NCBI RefSeq assembly: GCF_036227485.1
Contig: NZ_CP109479.1
Coordinates: 6,138,001 to 6,202,000 of the forward strand
Reading direction: 5' to 3'
Length of the DNA stretch: 64,000 nucleotides
Origin: Streptomyces sp. NBC_01451
GTDB taxonomy: Bacteria > Actinomycetota > Actinomycetes > Streptomycetales > Streptomycetaceae
Under the pieces are notes generated by a model, which worked only from the letters and a program-made list of their open reading frames with translations, ran no database searches and was not told the origin of the DNA. This document shows positions 12,008 to 35,848 of the stretch, in pieces. The position numbers were made by a program, and so were the translations under genes. Position 1 is the first letter of the stretch, and every line of letters begins with the position of its first letter.

Positions 12008-12458
12008 GAGTCATCCCCCCACACGCAGGTCACTGCGTGTTTGTCGGTTCTTTACACGTCCGCTCGGCCCCCCTCGGCCGTCACGGGCGCATCAGTAATG
12101 GACCACTGCTCCCACGTCATCCATAATCCACACTGTATAGACATGGAAGAGTGTCCTTCCGGTTGCAGGATGCCCCCCTCGACATCCGTTCATGAACGGG
12201 GCCCCATCCCCGCGCCGGCGCAACCGGTCCGCCCCCAAGGGCTGCGTGTCCGCAGCATGTTGCAGCCCAGGGTTCTACGCCGTTCAGCATGATCGCAAGA
12301 TGCGAAACACGGTGTTTACCGGTCATACGCGCTCATTGTGACGGCTGTTGAGCCCGATTGGTGCAATTGGGACCGCTTGTGCGCGGATGGTTCCGAAGTG
12401 TTTACAGGGTGTACGCGAACAGGCCCCCCGCCTCAGCGGAGGGCCTGCCGTGTGTCTG
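12008..12458. promoter_or_regulatory. cslA upstream region
   Basis: About 450 bp without a supported gene between cslA and tRNA-Lys. It contains a 13-base inverted repeat AAACACGGTGTTT at 12305-12317, which differs from the BldD consensus core at one position, and the terminator of tRNA-Lys at its right end. It should include the cslA promoter. Confidence 0.5.
12421..12446 (-). terminator. Terminator downstream of tRNA-Lys copy 1
   Basis: Stem-loop with 11-base arms (one mismatch) and a four-base loop, 12 bases after the tRNA 3' end on the minus strand. No T-run follows, as is common in Streptomyces. Confidence 0.65.
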
Positions 12459-12532
12459 TGCGCCGCCAGGGACTCGAACCCCGGACCCGCTGATTAAGAG
12501 TCAGCTGCTCTAACCAACTGAGCTAGCGGCGC
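12459..12532 (-). tRNA. tRNA-Lys (CTT), copy 1
   Basis: A 74-base cloverleaf with a seven-pair GCGCCGC/GCGGCGC acceptor stem, anticodon loop GACTCTTAATC with CTT anticodon, and a TTCGAGT T-loop. The 3' CCA is not encoded. Identical to the copies at 18560 and 30021. Confidence 0.96.
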
Positions 12533-18554: not shown

Positions 18555-18559
18555 CTGTG

Positions 18560-18633
18560 TGCGCCGCCAGGGACTCGAACCCCGGACCCGCTGATTAAGA
18601 GTCAGCTGCTCTAACCAACTGAGCTAGCGGCGC
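18560..18633 (-). tRNA. tRNA-Lys (CTT), copy 2
   Basis: 74 bases, identical to the copies at 12459 and 30021: same GCGCCGC acceptor stem, CTT anticodon and TTCGAGT T-loop, no encoded CCA. Confidence 0.96.
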
Positions 18634-26153: not shown

Positions 26154-28133
26154 TCACCCCTGCCGACAGGCACTGCCTCCCATCAGCAAGGAGATCCGAT
26201 CCGCCCCCACCGGCCGCGAATAGAGCCAGCCCTGCCCCGTATCGCACCCGATACGGCGCAGGCGCTCGGCCTGGGCCGCCGTCTCCACGCATTCGGCGGT
26301 GACCGTCAGCCCCAGCCGGTGCGCGAGTTGGATCATCGCCTCGACGACGATCTCGTCGGCCGGGTTCGGCGCGACGCCCTCGCCCTCGTACTGGAACCCC
26401 CGCACGAAGGAACCGTCCAGTTTCAGTACTGACACCGGCAGCCGGCTGAGGTAGGCGAGGTTCGAGTACCCCGTGCCGAAGTCGTCGATCGCGATGCCCA
26501 CGCCCATGTCGCTGAGTGCCTGGAGTGCCTGGAGGGGTCGGCCCGCGGAACCCATGACCGCCGACTCCGTCAGCTCCAGCTGCAACAGCTCCGGCGACAG
26601 GCCGGTCTCCGCGAGGATTTCCGCCACGTCCGCCACCAGGTCCGAGTCCCAGACCTGACGTACGGCGACGTTCACGCTCACGAAGATCGGTGGCTCGTCC
26701 GGGCGTTCGAGCTGCCAGCGGCGGGCCTGGCGGCAGGCCGTGGCGAGGACCCAGCGCCCCAGTTGCACGATCGAACCGTCCTCCTCGGCCAGCCCGATGA
26801 ACCGGTTCGGCGTCAACGTGCCGAACTGCGGGTGGTGCCAGCGCACCAACGCCTCCACGCCGTGCACCCGGCCGTCCGCCATACCCACCAACGGCTGGTA
26901 CTCCAGGGCGAATTCGCCCCGCTCGATGGCCGGTCGGAGGGTGGAGGACAGGGCCTGGCGGGTCATCCGGTGGGCGTTGCGCTCGGGGTCGAAGAGCGTC
27001 CACCGTGACTTGCCGTCGGCCTTCGCCCAGTACAGCGTCGTGTCCGCGGCCTGCATCAGACCCGTGGGAGTCGTGCCCGCCGCGTGCCGTTCGACCACGC
27101 CGATGGAGGCGGAGACGGACATCCGCTGCCCGGCCAGGTCGAAGGGCAGCTGGAGGGCTTTCAGCACCGACTCGGCCAGGTCGGCCAGTTGGTCGGTGCC
27201 GGTGGAGTCCTCGATCAGCAGCGCGAACTCGTCGCCGCCCAGCCTTGCCACCAGCGGGGCGACGGCGCCCGGGTTCCGCCGGGTCAGGCCCGCCTCCTCC
27301 GCGCACCGCGTGAGGCGTTCGGCCACGGCGGCGAGCAGCCGGTCACCGACGCGGTGGCCGAGGGTGTCGTTGATGGCCTTGAACCCGTCGAGGTCCAGGT
27401 AGCACAGGCCGATCCGGCCCGTCCCGCTCTGCTCGTACGACTCCGCCTCCAGCGCCGCCGAGAGCCGCTCGAAGAACAGCGTGCGGTTGGGCAGCCGGGT
27501 CACCGGATCGTGCATCTGCAAGTGCCGCAGCCGCGCCTGGAGTTCACGCCGCGCGCTGATGTCGGCAACGGACAGGAGAACGCCCCGGCCGCCGTACCTC
27601 TGGACTCCCTTCGAACCCCGAGATCCCTCCGAACCCGCCGCTGCCGCCTCCGCCGCGGTCTCCGCAGGCAGCGGTGTGACCGTGACCTGGGCCCAGAGGG
27701 AGTGCCCGTCCGGGTGCTTGAGGCGGCGTGTGCAGCGGAGCCGTGCCTGCCGGCCACGCAGTACCTCGCGGTACGCGTGCCACGCACGGGTGTCGGACGC
27801 GAGATCCACCAGATCGGCGGCCACCTTCCCGGCCAGCACCTCCGGGTCGATGCCCAGCAGCGCGCCCAGGGACTCGTTCGCCGTGACGACCAGCCCTTCG
27901 TGGTCCACCACGGCCATCGCCAGCGGCGCCGCCGCGAACGCGCCGCGCAGCAGGGCCGTACCGGCGGCCATATGGGAGGACGACATGGGCGACCTGGACG
28001 ACATGGGCGGCGTGGATGAAATGGTCGACGTGGAAGACGTGGATGACGTAGTAGACGTGCCGGAGTTACTCTCTGTGACGGCCGGCAGGATGAGATCTAC
28101 CGAGGGCGCCGGCCCTTCGGACGTTCCGCTCAC
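26154..28133 (-). CDS. cdgA: PAS-GGDEF-EAL cyclic-di-GMP enzyme, probable CdgA
   Basis: 659 residues from GTG 28133 with GGGAG upstream. The Ser/Thr-rich low-complexity leader (20-55) makes a later ATG start (M44, M50 or M55) possible. A PAS domain (about 62-200) is followed by a GGDEF domain with intact GGDEF at 299-303 and an EAL domain with EAL at 427-429 and DDFGTGYSN. Both catalytic signatures are complete, so synthesis and breakdown of c-di-GMP are possible. S. coelicolor CdgA has this architecture, lies in the same region and influences development under BldD. No membrane helices, so cytosolic. Confidence 0.8.
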   Translation of the reverse strand: MSGTSEGPAPSVDLILPAVTESNSGTSTTSSTSSTSTISSTPPMSSRSPMSSSHMAAGTALLRGAFAAAPLAMAVVDHEGLVVTANESLGALLGIDPEVLAGKVAADLVDLASDTRAWHAYREVLRGRQARLRCTRRLKHPDGHSLWAQVTVTPLPAETAAEAAAAGSEGSRGSKGVQRYGGRGVLLSVADISARRELQARLRHLQMHDPVTRLPNRTLFFERLSAALEAESYEQSGTGRIGLCYLDLDGFKAINDTLGHRVGDRLLAAVAERLTRCAEEAGLTRRNPGAVAPLVARLGGDEFALLIEDSTGTDQLADLAESVLKALQLPFDLAGQRMSVSASIGVVERHAAGTTPTGLMQAADTTLYWAKADGKSRWTLFDPERNAHRMTRQALSSTLRPAIERGEFALEYQPLVGMADGRVHGVEALVRWHHPQFGTLTPNRFIGLAEEDGSIVQLGRWVLATACRQARRWQLERPDEPPIFVSVNVAVRQVWDSDLVADVAEILAETGLSPELLQLELTESAVMGSAGRPLQALQALSDMGVGIAIDDFGTGYSNLAYLSRLPVSVLKLDGSFVRGFQYEGEGVAPNPADEIVVEAMIQLAHRLGLTVTAECVETAAQAERLRRIGCDTGQGWLYSRPVGADRISLLMGGSACRQG

Positions 28134-30011: not shown

Positions 30012-30020
30012 TCGACAACG

Positions 30021-30094
30021 TGCGCCGCCAGGGACTCGAACCCCGGACCCGCTGATTAAGAGTCAGCTGCTCTAACCAACTGAGCTAGCGGCGC
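30021..30094 (-). tRNA. tRNA-Lys (CTT), copy 3
   Basis: 74 bases, identical to the copies at 12459 and 18560. Its 5' ten bases overlap the 3' end of the upstream coding sequence and supply that gene's TAG stop. Confidence 0.96.
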
Positions 30095-30732
30095 CTGCTG
30101 ACGTCGTAGACCTTAGCACCCTGATCGGCGGGAGGAAAAATCGATATCCGCACCTCGCCGGAGACCGCGGAACGGGCCGCTCGCACGGCCGCCCAGAGCA
30201 GGATTTCGGGGCCCGGAAGCCAGGGGTGGCCGGTGTCGGGGGCGACGACCCAGCGGGACTCGGGCCGGAGGACACCTGCCGTCTCCCCGTGCTCGGTGTC
30301 GTCGTTCTCCAGTGCGGGGACGGTCACGGCGTCGCCGCGGCCGTGGCAGAGGAGCGGCGGAATCGCGTACCGGCGCCGGGTGCCACCGTCACCGTCCTCG
30401 CGTCCCTCGCCGGCTGAGCCCCACTCCTCCCACCTCAGCAGTGACGGCAGCCGCTGGGCCGTACCCAGCGCCGCGAACAGGAGGATCCGGCCCCGGTAGG
30501 CCGCCACCGGGCCGGAGCCGGGTCCGTCGTCCCAGAGGCGGTCGAGCATTCTGCGGCCGAAGACGGCGGGCACGTTGACGACGTCGAACGCGGTGCCGCA
30601 GGGCAGGACCAGCGGTGCGGTGGGCCGCTCGGCCCAGAGCGAGAGCGTGCTGCGCGGATACGTTCCTGCGGAGGCGAGCCAGACGGCGCCCTCCGAGGTG
30701 ACTCCCGAGACGTCAGAGTGTGTGCTGCTCAT
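30085..30732 (-). CDS. Small primase/polymerase-like (prim-pol) protein
   Basis: 215 residues. It resembles the small Streptomyces proteins annotated as bifunctional DNA primase/polymerase: VWLASAGTYPRSTLSLWAERPTAPLVLPCGTAFDVVNVP, then GRILLFAALGTAQRLPSLL and WVVAPDTGHPWLPGPEILLWA. The length covers only a reduced N-terminal prim-pol core, and no helicase follows. I see no DxD-type metal site, so activity is doubtful. The gene ends inside tRNA-Lys copy 3 and must be transcribed into it, so the tRNA may be processed from this mRNA. Confidence 0.7.
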   Translation of the reverse strand: MSSTHSDVSGVTSEGAVWLASAGTYPRSTLSLWAERPTAPLVLPCGTAFDVVNVPAVFGRRMLDRLWDDGPGSGPVAAYRGRILLFAALGTAQRLPSLLRWEEWGSAGEGREDGDGGTRRRYAIPPLLCHGRGDAVTVPALENDDTEHGETAGVLRPESRWVVAPDTGHPWLPGPEILLWAAVRAARSAVSGEVRISIFPPADQGAKVYDVSRRR

Positions 30733-30849: not shown

Positions 30850-30899
30850 GCCGGATCGGACCGGATCAGGCCGGATCGGACCGATCAGACCGGATCGAC
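30850..30899. repeat. 10-bp tandem repeat, five units
   Basis: Units CCGGATCGGA, CCGGATCAGG, CCGGATCGGA, CCGATCAGA and CCGGATCGAC, some carrying a GATC or TCAG change. The right end overlaps the last codons and stop of the 30885-31295 gene. Confidence 0.7.
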
Positions 30900-31295
30900 G
30901 TGACCCTGACCGTGGCCGCCGATACCGCTCCCGCCGCCTCCGCCGCTGGCGCGCTCCCCGCCGTCGCGCAGCAGCTCACGGCCGTACTCGACCATCTTCC
31001 GCGCGTAGTCCTCGGTCCACTGCGCCTGCTCCGCGATGTCGGCCTCGGTCAGCCGGTCGAAGCGGCGCGGGTCGGCGAGCTGGGCCGCCGCCATCGCCTG
31101 GAACTCGACGGCGCGGTCGGTCGCGGCGCGGAACGCGAGGGTCAGCTCCGTGGCGCGGGTCAGCAGCGCACGGGGGTCGTCGATCGACTCCAGGTCGAAG
31201 AAGTGCTCGGGGTCGTCGGCCACCTGCGTGGGCTCGAAGAGCAGGGGCGCGGGGCGCAGCCGCGGTTCGTTGCGACGCGGCGTTGGCTCCGCCAT
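30885..31295 (-). CDS. Small helical hypothetical protein
   Basis: 136 residues from ATG 31295 with a strong GAGGAGGAG ribosome site. The central part (30-110) is predicted helical and charged (DPRALLTRATELTLAFRAATDRAVEFQ), and a glycine/histidine-rich tail ends GGHGQGHVDPV. There is no known domain, signal peptide or membrane helix. It lies 167 bases downstream of the helicase in the same direction, so it may belong to the nuclease-helicase operon or have its own promoter. The end is built from a 10-bp DNA repeat. Confidence 0.72.
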   Translation of the reverse strand: MAEPTPRRNEPRLRPAPLLFEPTQVADDPEHFFDLESIDDPRALLTRATELTLAFRAATDRAVEFQAMAAAQLADPRRFDRLTEADIAEQAQWTEDYARKMVEYGRELLRDGGERASGGGGGSGIGGHGQGHVDPV

Positions 31296-31462: not shown

Positions 31463-32815
31463 CTACGGACGCCAGGCGACCCGGTGCTCGGCGAGATGCG
31501 ACAGCACCGCGTGGTTGGCCTCCCAGCCGTCCGGGAACTTCACCGTCACCCCCAGCTGGACCGGTTCCGTCGACGGATGGTCGTCCAGGAGTTCCGGCAC
31601 GCCCGCCCGGCACACCACCACGCACGCGTGCCGGTGTCTGGAGGCGAGGACGCAGAGCCGGCCCGTCTCCAGGTGGAAGGCGGTGGCGTCGGGGCGGCCG
31701 GACAGCGGGTGCAGGACCACCGTGACGTCGAACTCCCGCCCCTGGAGCCGGTTCGCCGTGTCCACGGTGACGTCCGCGACCCCCAGTTCGGAGAGCGCCG
31801 CCCGGACCGCCGCCGCCTGGTCCCGGTGCGCGGTGCCGACCGCGATCCGGTCGGCCGTGAGGGGCGTCGGGTCCGGTCCGCGTTCCGACGTGGCCGCGCC
31901 GCCCCGGTCCAGCATCCGGCGTACTACCAGGGCGACCGCGCGTACCGCCTCGGGGTCCGTGCGCGGGGTGTGCCGGGCGGGGAGTTCCAGCAGGCCCCAG
32001 CCCGATTCGGCGGCCTCGTCGAGGACCCGGTCCGGGCCCGAGCCGTCCGACGGGACCGCGAACGCGAGCCGCCGGTCGCCGTGGCCGGTGCCGCTGCGGA
32101 ACGGGGTGTACGGGTAGAAGGCGGCCGAGACGAGCGGCGCGGCCGAGGCCGGGAGCCGCCAGGACACCGGCAGGCGGTGCTGGGGCAGCTCGGGGTTGTG
32201 GGCCAGCAGGGTCGTGACCGCCGAGGCCGACGGGTCGTACGACAGGCCCGCCCACTGTTCCGCGCCGACGATCGAGAAGGGGTCCAGCTGGCCCGGGTCG
32301 CCCACGAACAGGGCCCGTTCGAACAGCCCGGCGACGGCGAGCAGCGCGTCGGAGCGCATCTGGTAGGCCTCGTCCACGATCGCGTGCCGCCACGGCTCGT
32401 CGACCTTGACGTGGGCCCACTTGGCGGCCGTGGAGATGACCACGTCCAGTCCCGCGAGCTCGGCCGCCTTCGCGGACTTCCGTACGTTCGGCAGGTCGTC
32501 CAGCGACTTGTCGTACGGGTCGGAGTCGCTGCTGTGCAGGCGGCCCACCGGCAGTTCGGGGTTCTTCTCGGCGAGACGGACGACGAGGTCGTCGACCTGG
32601 GCGTTCGTCTGCGCGATGACCATCAACGGGCGCCCGGCTTCGGCCAGTTCGAGCGCGGCCCGCACCACCAGCGTGGACTTCCCGGCCCCGGGCGGCGAGT
32701 CGACGACGACTCCGCGATGGGTGCCGTGCAGCGTGTCACGGAGGATCGCGTCGGTGGCCCGCCCGGCGGCGGCACCGGGATCGAAGGCGGCCTGCGGGGT
32801 ACGGGCGGCGCTCAC
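31463..32815 (-). CDS. SF1 (Upf1-like) helicase/ATPase
   Basis: 450 residues from GTG 32815. Walker A SPPGAGKST (40-48), Walker B AIVDEA (145-150), motif III FVGDPGQLDP (170-179), an arginine-rich segment near 214-220, motif V VDTANRLQGREFDVTVV (351-367) and motif VI ETGRLCVLASRHRHA (383-397) identify a superfamily 1B helicase core of minimal length. It should translocate on DNA or RNA. It is the third gene of a same-strand set with a RecB/Cas4-like nuclease and an unknown 542-residue protein, which suggests joint nucleic-acid processing. Confidence 0.87.
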   Translation of the reverse strand: MSAARTPQAAFDPGAAAGRATDAILRDTLHGTHRGVVVDSPPGAGKSTLVVRAALELAEAGRPLMVIAQTNAQVDDLVVRLAEKNPELPVGRLHSSDSDPYDKSLDDLPNVRKSAKAAELAGLDVVISTAAKWAHVKVDEPWRHAIVDEAYQMRSDALLAVAGLFERALFVGDPGQLDPFSIVGAEQWAGLSYDPSASAVTTLLAHNPELPQHRLPVSWRLPASAAPLVSAAFYPYTPFRSGTGHGDRRLAFAVPSDGSGPDRVLDEAAESGWGLLELPARHTPRTDPEAVRAVALVVRRMLDRGGAATSERGPDPTPLTADRIAVGTAHRDQAAAVRAALSELGVADVTVDTANRLQGREFDVTVVLHPLSGRPDATAFHLETGRLCVLASRHRHACVVVCRAGVPELLDDHPSTEPVQLGVTVKFPDGWEANHAVLSHLAEHRVAWRP

Positions 32816-32906
32816 GGGGTGCCTTCCTCGGGGGTGGGGCGGAGGCGAGGGGTGCGACGGGGCCGGCGGGCGCCGACGGCCCGACAGCCCCTCCGTGGAA
32901 CGGCGT

Positions 32907-34535
32907 TCACAGCACGTCCTCGTCGGTCACCGGGTCGGGCTCCGGCAGTGTCGGCGTCGTCTCCCCGCCGGGTGGCCCGCCGTGCGTCCACGGTGTCTGG
33001 TCCGCGTCCGGGAGCTTCGCCCCGCCCCGCTGCTCGTGCTCGAAGAGGGTGAAGCAGACCAGGTCCCCCTTCTCCGGGACCGACCCGGCCTCGGGCTCCT
33101 TGCCGCGGCCCATCTTGTCGACCACCCGCAGAACGATCACCGACCCCCCGGCTCCCGACCCCTCGGCTCCCGGATCGTCCTCGTGGCCCACGAACTCCGC
33201 CGCCTGCGGCTTGCCGCCCAGCGAGCGGTACACCTTCACTCGTTCGGCGAGCTGCGGACGGTCGTCCGTGCGGACGGTGACCAGCGGGCGCGGGCTCGGG
33301 CGCTTGCCCTCGCTGTACGTCATGACGACGTCCGTGACCTCCCCCGCGAACGCCTCCCCGGACAGCCGCCGGCCGGCCATCACCAGCGGGTCGTCGAGGG
33401 CCTCCTGGGCCTCCAGGCGGGCCTGTTCGCGCTCGCGCGTGGCCAGCTTGTTCGCCGCCGTCACCGCGTCGTCGCGGCGCGGCTGCGGTGGCTCGCCCGC
33501 GGTGACCCGGTCGCGGTGGCCGGTGAACGACCAGCGGTCGCGCGTCCACCGGTCGGCCGCGTGCGCGCCCTCCGGCAGTGTCCGCAGCAGGTCGAGGCCG
33601 CGCCACACCGCGTCCCAGGTGGGCCGCGTACGGCTCTCGACGAGGGCGCGGATCTCCCGCTCGGCGGCGGTGAGTTCACCGAGCCGGTCGTCCGCCGACT
33701 CGCCGTCCTCGGCGGCGGCGAGCGCGGTCCGCGCGCGGTTGTAGTTCTCGATGGCGGGGGCGAGCAGCTTGTTGTCGAACGCGGGGTCGGTCGCCGGACC
33801 GGCCGGGGGCCACAGCAGCTGTCCCTTCCCGTCCCGCGCCAGTTCGGCCCGCAGCGCCGCCTCGGCGCCCGTCATGCCGTCCGGCGGGTCGATCCAGGCG
33901 AGCAGCGCGCCCAGATGCTGGTCCTCCAGCGTGGACTGCCCGGTCGCCCAGTGCCGTGACAGCACGTCCGTCAGCGCCAGGAGGAGAGCGGAGCCGGGGA
34001 CCCGGGCCCGCTCCCCGTAGTGCGTGAACCAGCGGCCGAGCAACGGCACCCGGGGCGGCGCGGGATGCGGCGTCTCCGGGTCCTGTTCCGCCGTACGCCG
34101 GAAGCGCATCGAGCGCCCCAGCAGCCGTACGAAGTCGATGCCGGCGCGGCTCGGGACGATCAACTGGGGTGCGTCCGCGCACAGTTCGACCTCGACCTTG
34201 ACGCGCTTGCCGGTCTCCGGGTCGATCTCGTTGCGCTCCGCGGCCTCCACGGTGTCGGCGTGGGAGTCGATGAACGGCAGGACGATGTCGGCCAGTTCGG
34301 CGAGGAACGCGAACCTGAGGTCGCGGTCGCGCGGCTGCGGTACGACGAGCAGACGCGGCGCGTCCCGGTCGTCGCCGACCAGCGCGCCCAGCGGTGCCCC
34401 GGCCTCACCGGCGGTGGTCAGCGGTACGAGGACGAGGGGCCGCTCGGACAGATGGCGGTGCCGGACGGTGGCGGCGGGCTGGGCGCGCCCGCTGCTGACG
34501 GCTTCGAGACGGGCGAGCGTGGCGATCAACGACAT
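32907..34535 (-). CDS. Unknown 542-residue protein of the nuclease-helicase operon
   Basis: No family recognised. The protein is rich in charged residues and helices, with a possible coiled coil near 320-400 (REREQARLEAQEALDD). No Walker box, nuclease signature, cysteine cluster, signal peptide or membrane helix is visible. The first half contains LLVVPQPRDRDLRFAFLAEL and PQLIVPSRAGIDFVRLL, which resemble alpha/beta folds. The ATG overlaps the end of the nuclease gene by ten bases and the helicase follows after 91 bases, so it is probably a core component of the same machine. Confidence 0.8.
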   Translation of the reverse strand: MSLIATLARLEAVSSGRAQPAATVRHRHLSERPLVLVPLTTAGEAGAPLGALVGDDRDAPRLLVVPQPRDRDLRFAFLAELADIVLPFIDSHADTVEAAERNEIDPETGKRVKVEVELCADAPQLIVPSRAGIDFVRLLGRSMRFRRTAEQDPETPHPAPPRVPLLGRWFTHYGERARVPGSALLLALTDVLSRHWATGQSTLEDQHLGALLAWIDPPDGMTGAEAALRAELARDGKGQLLWPPAGPATDPAFDNKLLAPAIENYNRARTALAAAEDGESADDRLGELTAAEREIRALVESRTRPTWDAVWRGLDLLRTLPEGAHAADRWTRDRWSFTGHRDRVTAGEPPQPRRDDAVTAANKLATREREQARLEAQEALDDPLVMAGRRLSGEAFAGEVTDVVMTYSEGKRPSPRPLVTVRTDDRPQLAERVKVYRSLGGKPQAAEFVGHEDDPGAEGSGAGGSVIVLRVVDKMGRGKEPEAGSVPEKGDLVCFTLFEHEQRGGAKLPDADQTPWTHGGPPGGETTPTLPEPDPVTDEDVL

Positions 34536-35848
34536 CCGGCACCCCCCGGTTCCAGGCCCAAGCTCATACTCAAGTCCAACTCCGGCTCCGGAGCGGCGAG
34601 TTCGGCGCCGCGCAGTGCCTCCGCGCGCAGGGCCGCTGCCCTCCGCAGCGCGGCGACCGTCGGGTCCCGGGGGTCGCCGGACCGGCCGTGGGCCGCCGAC
34701 AGGACGTCGTCGACCGTGGTCAGGGCGCCCAGTTCGGCCCGTACCGAACGGCCCAGGGACGTCACCGCGCCCCGCGCGCGGGAACGGTCACGGCAGTGGA
34801 AGGCGAGCTCGCAGGCGGACAGGCACTCCGGCGCGTACTCCGCGGGGACCGACTCGACCGCCGCGGTCAGTTCGGCGGTGGGCAGGTCCGGGGCGAAGCA
34901 GGTGCCCTCGGGGAGGGCGTCGGCGATGTCCTCGATACGGGTCAGCCGGGACAGCTGTCGGCCGGTCACCGCGCGCTGTTTGCGGACGTCGACCGCGGAC
35001 GCCGCCGCGAGGTTGGAGAAGTCCTTCGGACAGACCAGCAGTACGCGGTGGCGCACGACCGGCTCGGGCTCGCCGTCCCGGACGAGCCGGTCGGCGACCT
35101 CCTCCAGTGCCAGCACGTACACCGCGGCCTGGCGGGCCGCGGCGCCCACCTTCGCGGGGTCCGCCGAACCGTCCAGCATCGGGAAGGACTTGATCTCCAC
35201 GACCGTCCAGCTGCCGTCCGGGTGCACCACCACCGCGTCCGGTTCCAGGAAGGCCGGTGAGCCCGCGACGTCGAGGGCGAGCATGGGGTGGTCGAGGAGC
35301 GTCCAGCCGCTGATGCCACTGCCGCTGCCGGATCTCGCCGCCGCTGTGGCTTCGCGCAGGGCCAGGGTTGTCCGCGCGGTGCGGCCCTCCGGTCCGCTCG
35401 CCGTGAGGTCGGGGACCGCGGCCTCCGCCGGTGGTACCGCGCCCGGGTCCAGCTTCTCGTGCACCAGCCGGAGCAGCTCCGCGCCGCCGTCGGCCTTGAC
35501 GCGGGCCTCGAAGGTGTTGCCGCGCGCCAGGGCGAACTGGGACTGTCCGAAGGCGGACGGTGAACCCAGCGCGCTCGCCAGCGTCGCCTTGTTCACCCCC
35601 GCGCCGTCCAGGATCGCGCGCCGCCTGCACCCGGGGTTGGCGGCGAGGGCCGCGAGGGCACGCGCGTCCAGGGCTTTCGGCGGGACCGCGGGACCGCGCA
35701 GCTCAGCGAGCCGCTGCCGCAGCGCCGTCCCCCGCGTCCGCGGAAGCGGCACCCGGCTCGGCCCCTGGCCCGGGACCTGGCCCGAGGACGGACTCGCGCT
35801 GCCTTGGAATTCGCTCACGCGGGGAAGTCTGGCATTCGCCACTGACAA
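34526..35848 (-). CDS. RecB/Cas4-like PD-(D/E)XK nuclease with four-cysteine cluster
   Basis: 440 residues. PD-(D/E)XK motifs in order: Glu114 in ARGNTFE, Asp204 in EPDAVVV, Glu218-x-Lys220 in VVEIKSF, and Gln240-x3-Tyr244 in RQAAVYVLAL, the RecB-family QxxxY. Four cysteines, Cys74 and Cys342, Cys346, Cys352 (C-x3-C-x5-C), bracket the domain as in AddB and Cas4 iron-sulfur nucleases. It should cut or resect DNA ends. The start is uncertain: TTG 35848 (AGAGG upstream), GTG 35842 or GTG 35818. All starts overlap the end of the PAP2 gene. The stop overlaps the next gene. Confidence 0.83.
   Translation of the reverse strand: MSVANARLPRVSEFQGSASPSSGQVPGQGPSRVPLPRTRGTALRQRLAELRGPAVPPKALDARALAALAANPGCRRRAILDGAGVNKATLASALGSPSAFGQSQFALARGNTFEARVKADGGAELLRLVHEKLDPGAVPPAEAAVPDLTASGPEGRTARTTLALREATAAARSGSGSGISGWTLLDHPMLALDVAGSPAFLEPDAVVVHPDGSWTVVEIKSFPMLDGSADPAKVGAAARQAAVYVLALEEVADRLVRDGEPEPVVRHRVLLVCPKDFSNLAAASAVDVRKQRAVTGRQLSRLTRIEDIADALPEGTCFAPDLPTAELTAAVESVPAEYAPECLSACELAFHCRDRSRARGAVTSLGRSVRAELGALTTVDDVLSAAHGRSGDPRDPTVAALRRAAALRAEALRGAELAAPEPELDLSMSLGLEPGGAGCR

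Follow-up and report, generated by a model that had tools for sequence, protein, structure and literature searches.

The window, by which we mean the whole stretch of 64,000 nt analysed here (G000:C1:6138001-6202000), lies within a chromosome of 10.27 Mb and carries three consecutive reverse-strand genes. NUC (34526-35848 (-), an ORF of 440 aa) encodes a Cas4/RecB-like PD-(D/E)XK nuclease with four conserved cysteines, P542 (32907-34535 (-), 542 aa) a protein of no known family, and HEL (31463-32815 (-), 450 aa) an SF1 helicase core (1A-2A). The ORF coordinates bear out the layout given in an earlier, sequence-only reading of this DNA, with a NUC/P542 overlap of 10 bases and a gap of 91 bases from P542 to HEL. 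The start codon of NUC is uncertain; the TTG at 35848 falls within the 3' end of a PAP2 gene (stop 35703), and the first ~30 residues of the product have a low-confidence structure prediction. A small gene (ATG near 31295, stop at 30885), once suggested as a possible fourth member of the operon, is not one, as it is found only beside Streptomyces core loci and its position varies (inverted in L109, displaced in L033 and L129). Just downstream of the trio region lies a tRNA-Lys(CTT) gene (30020-30094), one of three with equal Rfam scores less than 18 kb apart (the others at 12458-12532 and 18559-18633). A 215-residue protein at 30085-30732 has a match to the N-terminal Prim-Pol domain just below the threshold (21.1 bits, cut-off 22.8).

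The predicted fold of NUC is Cas4/RecB-like, with structure matches to the DNA exonucleases Cas4, MGME1, ExoV, RecE and AddAB, and its fold, catalytic residues and four cysteines all place it among the Cas4/RecB-like PD-(D/E)XK nucleases. Searches of Pfam, NCBIfam, PADLOC and PHROGs gave no match for NUC; PDDEXK_1 of Pfam was matched in 3 of 18 NUC members (best E 0.0025), the window's NUC not among them. Two engineered proteins matching the NUC profile, 4rv1 and 4hxt, cover residues 37-111 only and were taken as repeat-like chance matches. The locus proteins were aligned as A4 (75/78 usable P542 proteins plus that of the window), A5 (75/77 for NUC) and A6 (30/38 for the c20 gene described below). 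In an alignment of 76 NUC proteins, from which a pPIWI-RE-linked branch was left out, E114, D204, E218 and Q240 are each kept in 74 rows and K220 and Y244 in all 76, as are the cysteines C74, C342, C346 and C352. The catalytic residues and cysteine cluster read from the single sequence are thus conserved in most copies, and the C-x3-C-x5-C spacing, unlike the usual C-x2-C, is real and found in 76/76 rows. We consider it likely from this conservation that NUC holds an Fe-S cluster. The check for loss of such residues in relatives gave a divided answer: the pPIWI-RE-linked branch (3 of the 18 rows of alignment A2) has H at 114, L at 218 and R at 220, while its cysteines are kept. This branch, formed by L025, L026 and L047 with all four cysteines present, may be a structural, inactive form.

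For P542 nothing above the cut-off was found in Pfam, NCBIfam, PADLOC or PHROGs, the Pfam match being sub-threshold only, and the earlier description of a protein of no known family therefore holds by profile searches. Relatives occur in 36 of 36 same-genus genomes, which shows that the ORF is not there by chance; a phylum-wide search with P542 alone matched 11 of 296 genomes. Its structure model is confident and consists of an exonuclease-like (RNase H-like) half (residues 31-371, 33423-34445 (-)), a helical stalk and a barrel (residues 388-499, 33039-33374 (-)) like domain 1B of the Sen1/Senataxin helicases. A fold unrelated to nucleic acids had been named as a point that would tell against the sequence-only reading; the model shows nucleic-acid-type domains. 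The exonuclease-like half is probably inactive, and DEDD exonuclease activity seems unlikely by eye from the alignments. NucC, considered as a relative, was not significant (E 0.37-1.7).

HEL passes the Pfam cut-offs of AAA_11, AAA_12, AAA_30 and Viral_helicase1, and with its AAA_11 and AAA_12 domains and motifs I to VI it belongs to the Upf1-like SF1 helicases. The Walker A motif PPGAGKST, read from the sequence (residues 41-48, 32672-32695 (-)), is invariant in 19 aligned rows. Against solved structures the HEL profile matched Dna2 best (E 8.4e-11), followed by SMUBP-2 and Upf1, and its best PHROG match is phrog_25411 (E 1.3e-15), a family of no known function. In PADLOC-DB 2.0.0 neither NUC nor P542 matches a system protein, and HEL has partial helicase matches only. 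About 40 residues precede the Walker A motif, and the domain 1B barrel is seemingly absent from HEL; a barrel of this kind is modelled in P542, which is fused directly ahead of HEL in six proteins.

The three families form one unit, as the sequence-only reading had supposed from the gene order. Profiles of P542, NUC and HEL (the last with a threshold of E <= 1e-50) each match 48 of 296 genomes of the class, and by comparison of the lists by eye these are the same 48; none of the three families occurs independently in this sample. Among the 48 are 27 of the 28 same-genus genomes, our own included, the remaining one (G554) being without all three, and also Micromonospora genomes with HEL apart from NUC-P542. 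Further, we compared the best 80 of 287 loci, ranked by likeness to the SbcCD-linked locus L027, for which reason the proportions should not be read as population frequencies. NUC and P542 are adjacent in all 80, and HEL is also present in 64. Of the 16 loci of this set without HEL, one (L084) is a contig end and 15 are of Micromonospora type; the genomes of these 15 each have a HEL gene elsewhere, outside the locus stretch, one of them (G616) has a second locus, L059, with its own HEL, and no HEL was found in the MAG carrying L084. In G261 and G516 the distance from P542 to HEL is ~36 and ~49 kb. Between P542 and HEL, L059 of Micromonospora musae encodes a 780-residue protein that matches PADLOC HEC-05 (L059:11577-13919), and the gap in L060 is of similar size. 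In the same 80 loci, overlaps between neighbouring genes were counted in 50 of 78 NUC/P542 pairs and in 45 of 64 P542/HEL pairs, with a median of -4 bases for starts chosen by script.

A joined NUC+P542+HEL query retrieved 10 proteins, none of which includes a NUC part. Six of these (930-936 aa) are P542-HEL fusions, P542-like over ~1-480 (34-37% identity) and HEL-like over ~500-930 (50-54%), and four of the six carry Streptomyces or Streptoverticillium names. P0125 (789 aa) is a seventh, shorter fusion; the remaining three are a long P542 (P0128), a frame-mixed product (P0129) and a piece of HEL with other sequence (P0130). Close relatives of the fusion in G735, G662 and G716 are not fused but form separate reading frames, with NUC, c20 and SbcD/SbcC next to them. 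The long frame of L037, another candidate fusion, stems from an N stretch and a frame shift, and this locus was left out of alignments and tree. The natural fusions support a split helicase, and there is a strong case that the motor is divided between P542 and HEL.

The Streptomyces trio sits on the chromosome as a near-core locus. Of 150 Streptomyces genomes, 143 gave a match of some type. The 23 core rows group in a single clade (SH-aLRT 100), and the core loci have the same kinds of neighbours, namely PAP2, phosphatase, HTH-TPR, small, primase-like, M6 and GGDEF genes. No SbcCD or Wadjet genes lie near any of the 20 core loci examined, and nothing at the window locus itself points to defence. 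The GGDEF-type gene of Streptomyces core loci (26154-28133 in the window) is found ~3 kb past the trio; a gene of this type is also near NUC-P542 in 14 Micromonospora-type loci (L062, L064, L066, L068, L070-L073, L076, L082, L088, L090, L092 and L096), a neighbourhood that may reflect old synteny or a signalling link.

Other copies appear mobile and carry a fourth gene, c20, which lies directly upstream of NUC in 47 of the best 80 of 287 loci; of 42 pairs measured, 41 overlap or are at most 200 bases apart. It was matched in 16 of 296 genomes, with 13 strong matches that each adjoin NUC; the remainder are fragments in G589, a stop-containing copy in G418, which lacks the trio, and a marginal match in G449. 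A profile search of our own genome (G000) did not find c20. The protein has weak Pfam matches only; it has a coiled coil and perhaps a winged helix, the latter read by eye.

SbcD and/or SbcC lie beside the set in 22 of 98 loci scanned, all with c20 and HEL, and Wadjet genes were found in 11 of these 22 and in 0 of the other 76. It should be noted that L031/L056, L022/L104 and L035/L120 were each judged, their contigs being equally long, to be the same record, which leaves 21 SbcCD-linked among 95 distinct loci, and that all these counts come from loci related by descent, with no random-locus control, and are not frequencies. In ten loci the Wadjet genes come after HEL and are co-directional with it, and in L095 they are inverted; in L029, L030 and L050 JetC2 is the sole recognised Wadjet gene, with suitably sized, clustered reading frames between. 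Two arrangements of SbcCD were seen, upstream and divergent or downstream and co-directional, and L030 keeps only part of SbcD. Family tests gave SbcD, SbcC, JetA2, JetB2 and JetC2 for L027, JetA1-D1 for L053 and JetC2 for L050. All 14 genomes searched with a quartet-linked SbcD have at least one further, better-scoring SbcD (score and contig served to tell which copy was the linked one). L057 has type I restriction genes nearby, and L117 a Hachiman helicase; together with Wadjet and pPIWI-RE these neighbours bear out the defence theme of the sequence-only reading as far as the mobile relatives are concerned. In L223, L224, L027, L050-L053 and L055, SbcC-SbcD, c20-NUC-P542-HEL and a type I or II Wadjet operon stand in the same positions relative to one another, as if one Wadjet type could be swapped for another behind the same module.

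Two Streptomyces plasmids (L223 and L224) carry c20-NUC-P542-HEL followed by JetABCD. L223 is a linear plasmid with P542 ~13 kb from an end and with SbcC and SbcD intact, and in L224 the SbcCD genes are in pieces. In all, 3 of 72,556 plasmid records matched, one of which (11.85 Mb) is evidently a chromosome. As to a phage origin, there was no match in 50,697 phage records and no relative in viral contigs. In G735 and G662 the fusion-like branch has copies ~21 kb from each chromosome end (L250, L251 and L253 are among the end-near copies), two copies at both ends being as expected for terminal inverted repeats; a further copy of this branch in G716 is ~0.5 Mb from an end, and an SbcCD-linked copy in G701 is less than 10 kb from the contig start. 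Wadjet and Lamassu are enriched at Streptomyces chromosome ends according to PMC10482375. One branch of the tree, built by a quick method with many open forks, mixes Streptomyces, Catenulispora and Nocardia, which would fit transfer between genera.

Among known systems Dna2 shows the same elements in the same order as proposed for the trio, an Fe-S RecB-like nuclease, barrel plus stalk and an Upf1-like SF1 motor; it is the best PDB profile match of HEL, and NUC aligns to it too. However, Dna2 is one polypeptide whereas here there are three genes, with only P542-HEL fusions found, P542 has an extra exonuclease-like half, and the cysteine spacing is C-x2-C in Dna2 and C-x3-C in NUC. AddAB, AdnAB and RecBCD share the nuclease-helicase theme, and their nuclease domains match the NUC fold; their motors are UvrD-like, whereas HEL is AAA_11/AAA_12, and no counterpart of P542 was seen in them. 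The TM0106 family (TIGR03491; actinobacterial fused proteins of ~1,130-1,440 aa) is a close relative for HEL only: its C-terminal helicase matches HEL (hhalign probability 99), but NUC and P542 have no detectable profile similarity (hhalign probability 0.3 from shallow alignments, no NCBIfam match), and TIGR03491 was not found in the 4 Streptomyces genomes searched. HEL also aligns to the C-terminal part of the PLuB helicase-like protein (NF040671, E 2.5e-14), but scores 51.7 bits against a cut-off of 999 for what is a fused protein of 1,256 positions. Wadjet (JetABCD) and SbcCD, neighbours of mobile copies, are separate gene families and are not beside the window's copy. A keyword search of the open-licence literature found no description of the trio, though an unnamed or subscription-only account could escape it, and the accessible parts of PMC10482375, PMC12839542, PMC10853773, PMC3702460, PMC5839063 and PMC10586767 do not describe it.

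We infer a complex, with its Fe-S cluster, activities, substrates and roles, in which NUC, P542 and HEL are subunits of one ATP-dependent, Dna2-like nuclease-helicase in three pieces, and we favour this reading as reasonably probable, with folds that rest on models. HEL would be the motor that pulls DNA, completed by the stalk and 1B-like barrel of P542, while the exonuclease-like half of P542 would be a probably inactive platform bridging motor and nuclease, and NUC would cut the strand delivered by the motor. The trio would act on DNA ends or invading DNA, as had been proposed from its sequence. The Streptomyces copy would be settled on the chromosome, where it most likely serves to process DNA ends or broken forks. 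The mobile form, with c20 and often also with SbcD-SbcC and Wadjet, would most likely degrade invading DNA; for this defence role there is a fair, unproven case. More tentatively, and with some doubt, we speculate that SbcC-SbcD, c20-NUC-P542-HEL and JetABCD form one two-pronged immune system, because Wadjet is reported to cut circular, not linear, DNA and Rad50 complexes to sense ends (PMC10586767). Wadjet would cut circular invaders, SbcCD and the split nuclease-helicase would sense and degrade linear DNA (free-ended invaders and linear Wadjet products), and Streptomyces would keep a domesticated nuclease-helicase for its own genome.

The neighbours of the other copies (Wadjet, pPIWI-RE, type I restriction and Hachiman genes), the plasmid copies and the tree branch common to several genera could also mean that the trio is a defence system throughout, with the Streptomyces core copy a fixed anti-phage or anti-plasmid system and not a maintenance machine. 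We think this unlikely, as the core copies group in a single clade and share their chromosomal surroundings, SbcCD or Wadjet occur in 0 of 20 core loci, and nearly all Streptomyces genomes (143/150) have a match of some type. A role at linear replicon ends in Streptomyces, in telomere processing or protection, seems improbable: the core copy has an internal position (6.1-6.2 Mb on a chromosome of 10.27 Mb), the one in G716 is ~0.5 Mb away from an end, genera such as Nocardia, Micromonospora and Amycolatopsis also have relatives, and enrichment at ends is reported for Wadjet itself (PMC10482375). These outweigh the extra copies ~20 kb from both ends in G735 and G662 and less than 10 kb from the contig end in G701, the copy near the linear plasmid end, and the action of SbcCD on DNA ends (PMC10586767). 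Slightly less credible still is action on RNA or RNA-DNA hybrids, which might be expected of Upf1/Sen1-like helicases and RNase H-like folds, given the SMUBP-2 and Upf1 matches of HEL and the Sen1/Senataxin match of the P542 barrel; NUC matches DNA exonucleases (Cas4, MGME1, ExoV, RecE, AddAB), Dna2 is the best profile match of HEL, and the neighbours SbcCD and Wadjet act on DNA.

If the Dna2-like reading is true, it adds a nuclease-helicase with its motor split over two genes, of which one belongs to an unannotated family that nearly all Streptomyces sampled possess. End-sensing SbcCD and circle-cutting Wadjet would then be joined through a shared degradation machine, and the removal of linear DNA in bacteria with linear replicons of their own would become directly testable. 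The mobile relatives beside anti-plasmid and DNA-end-sensing genes point to an undescribed processing of broken or invading DNA.
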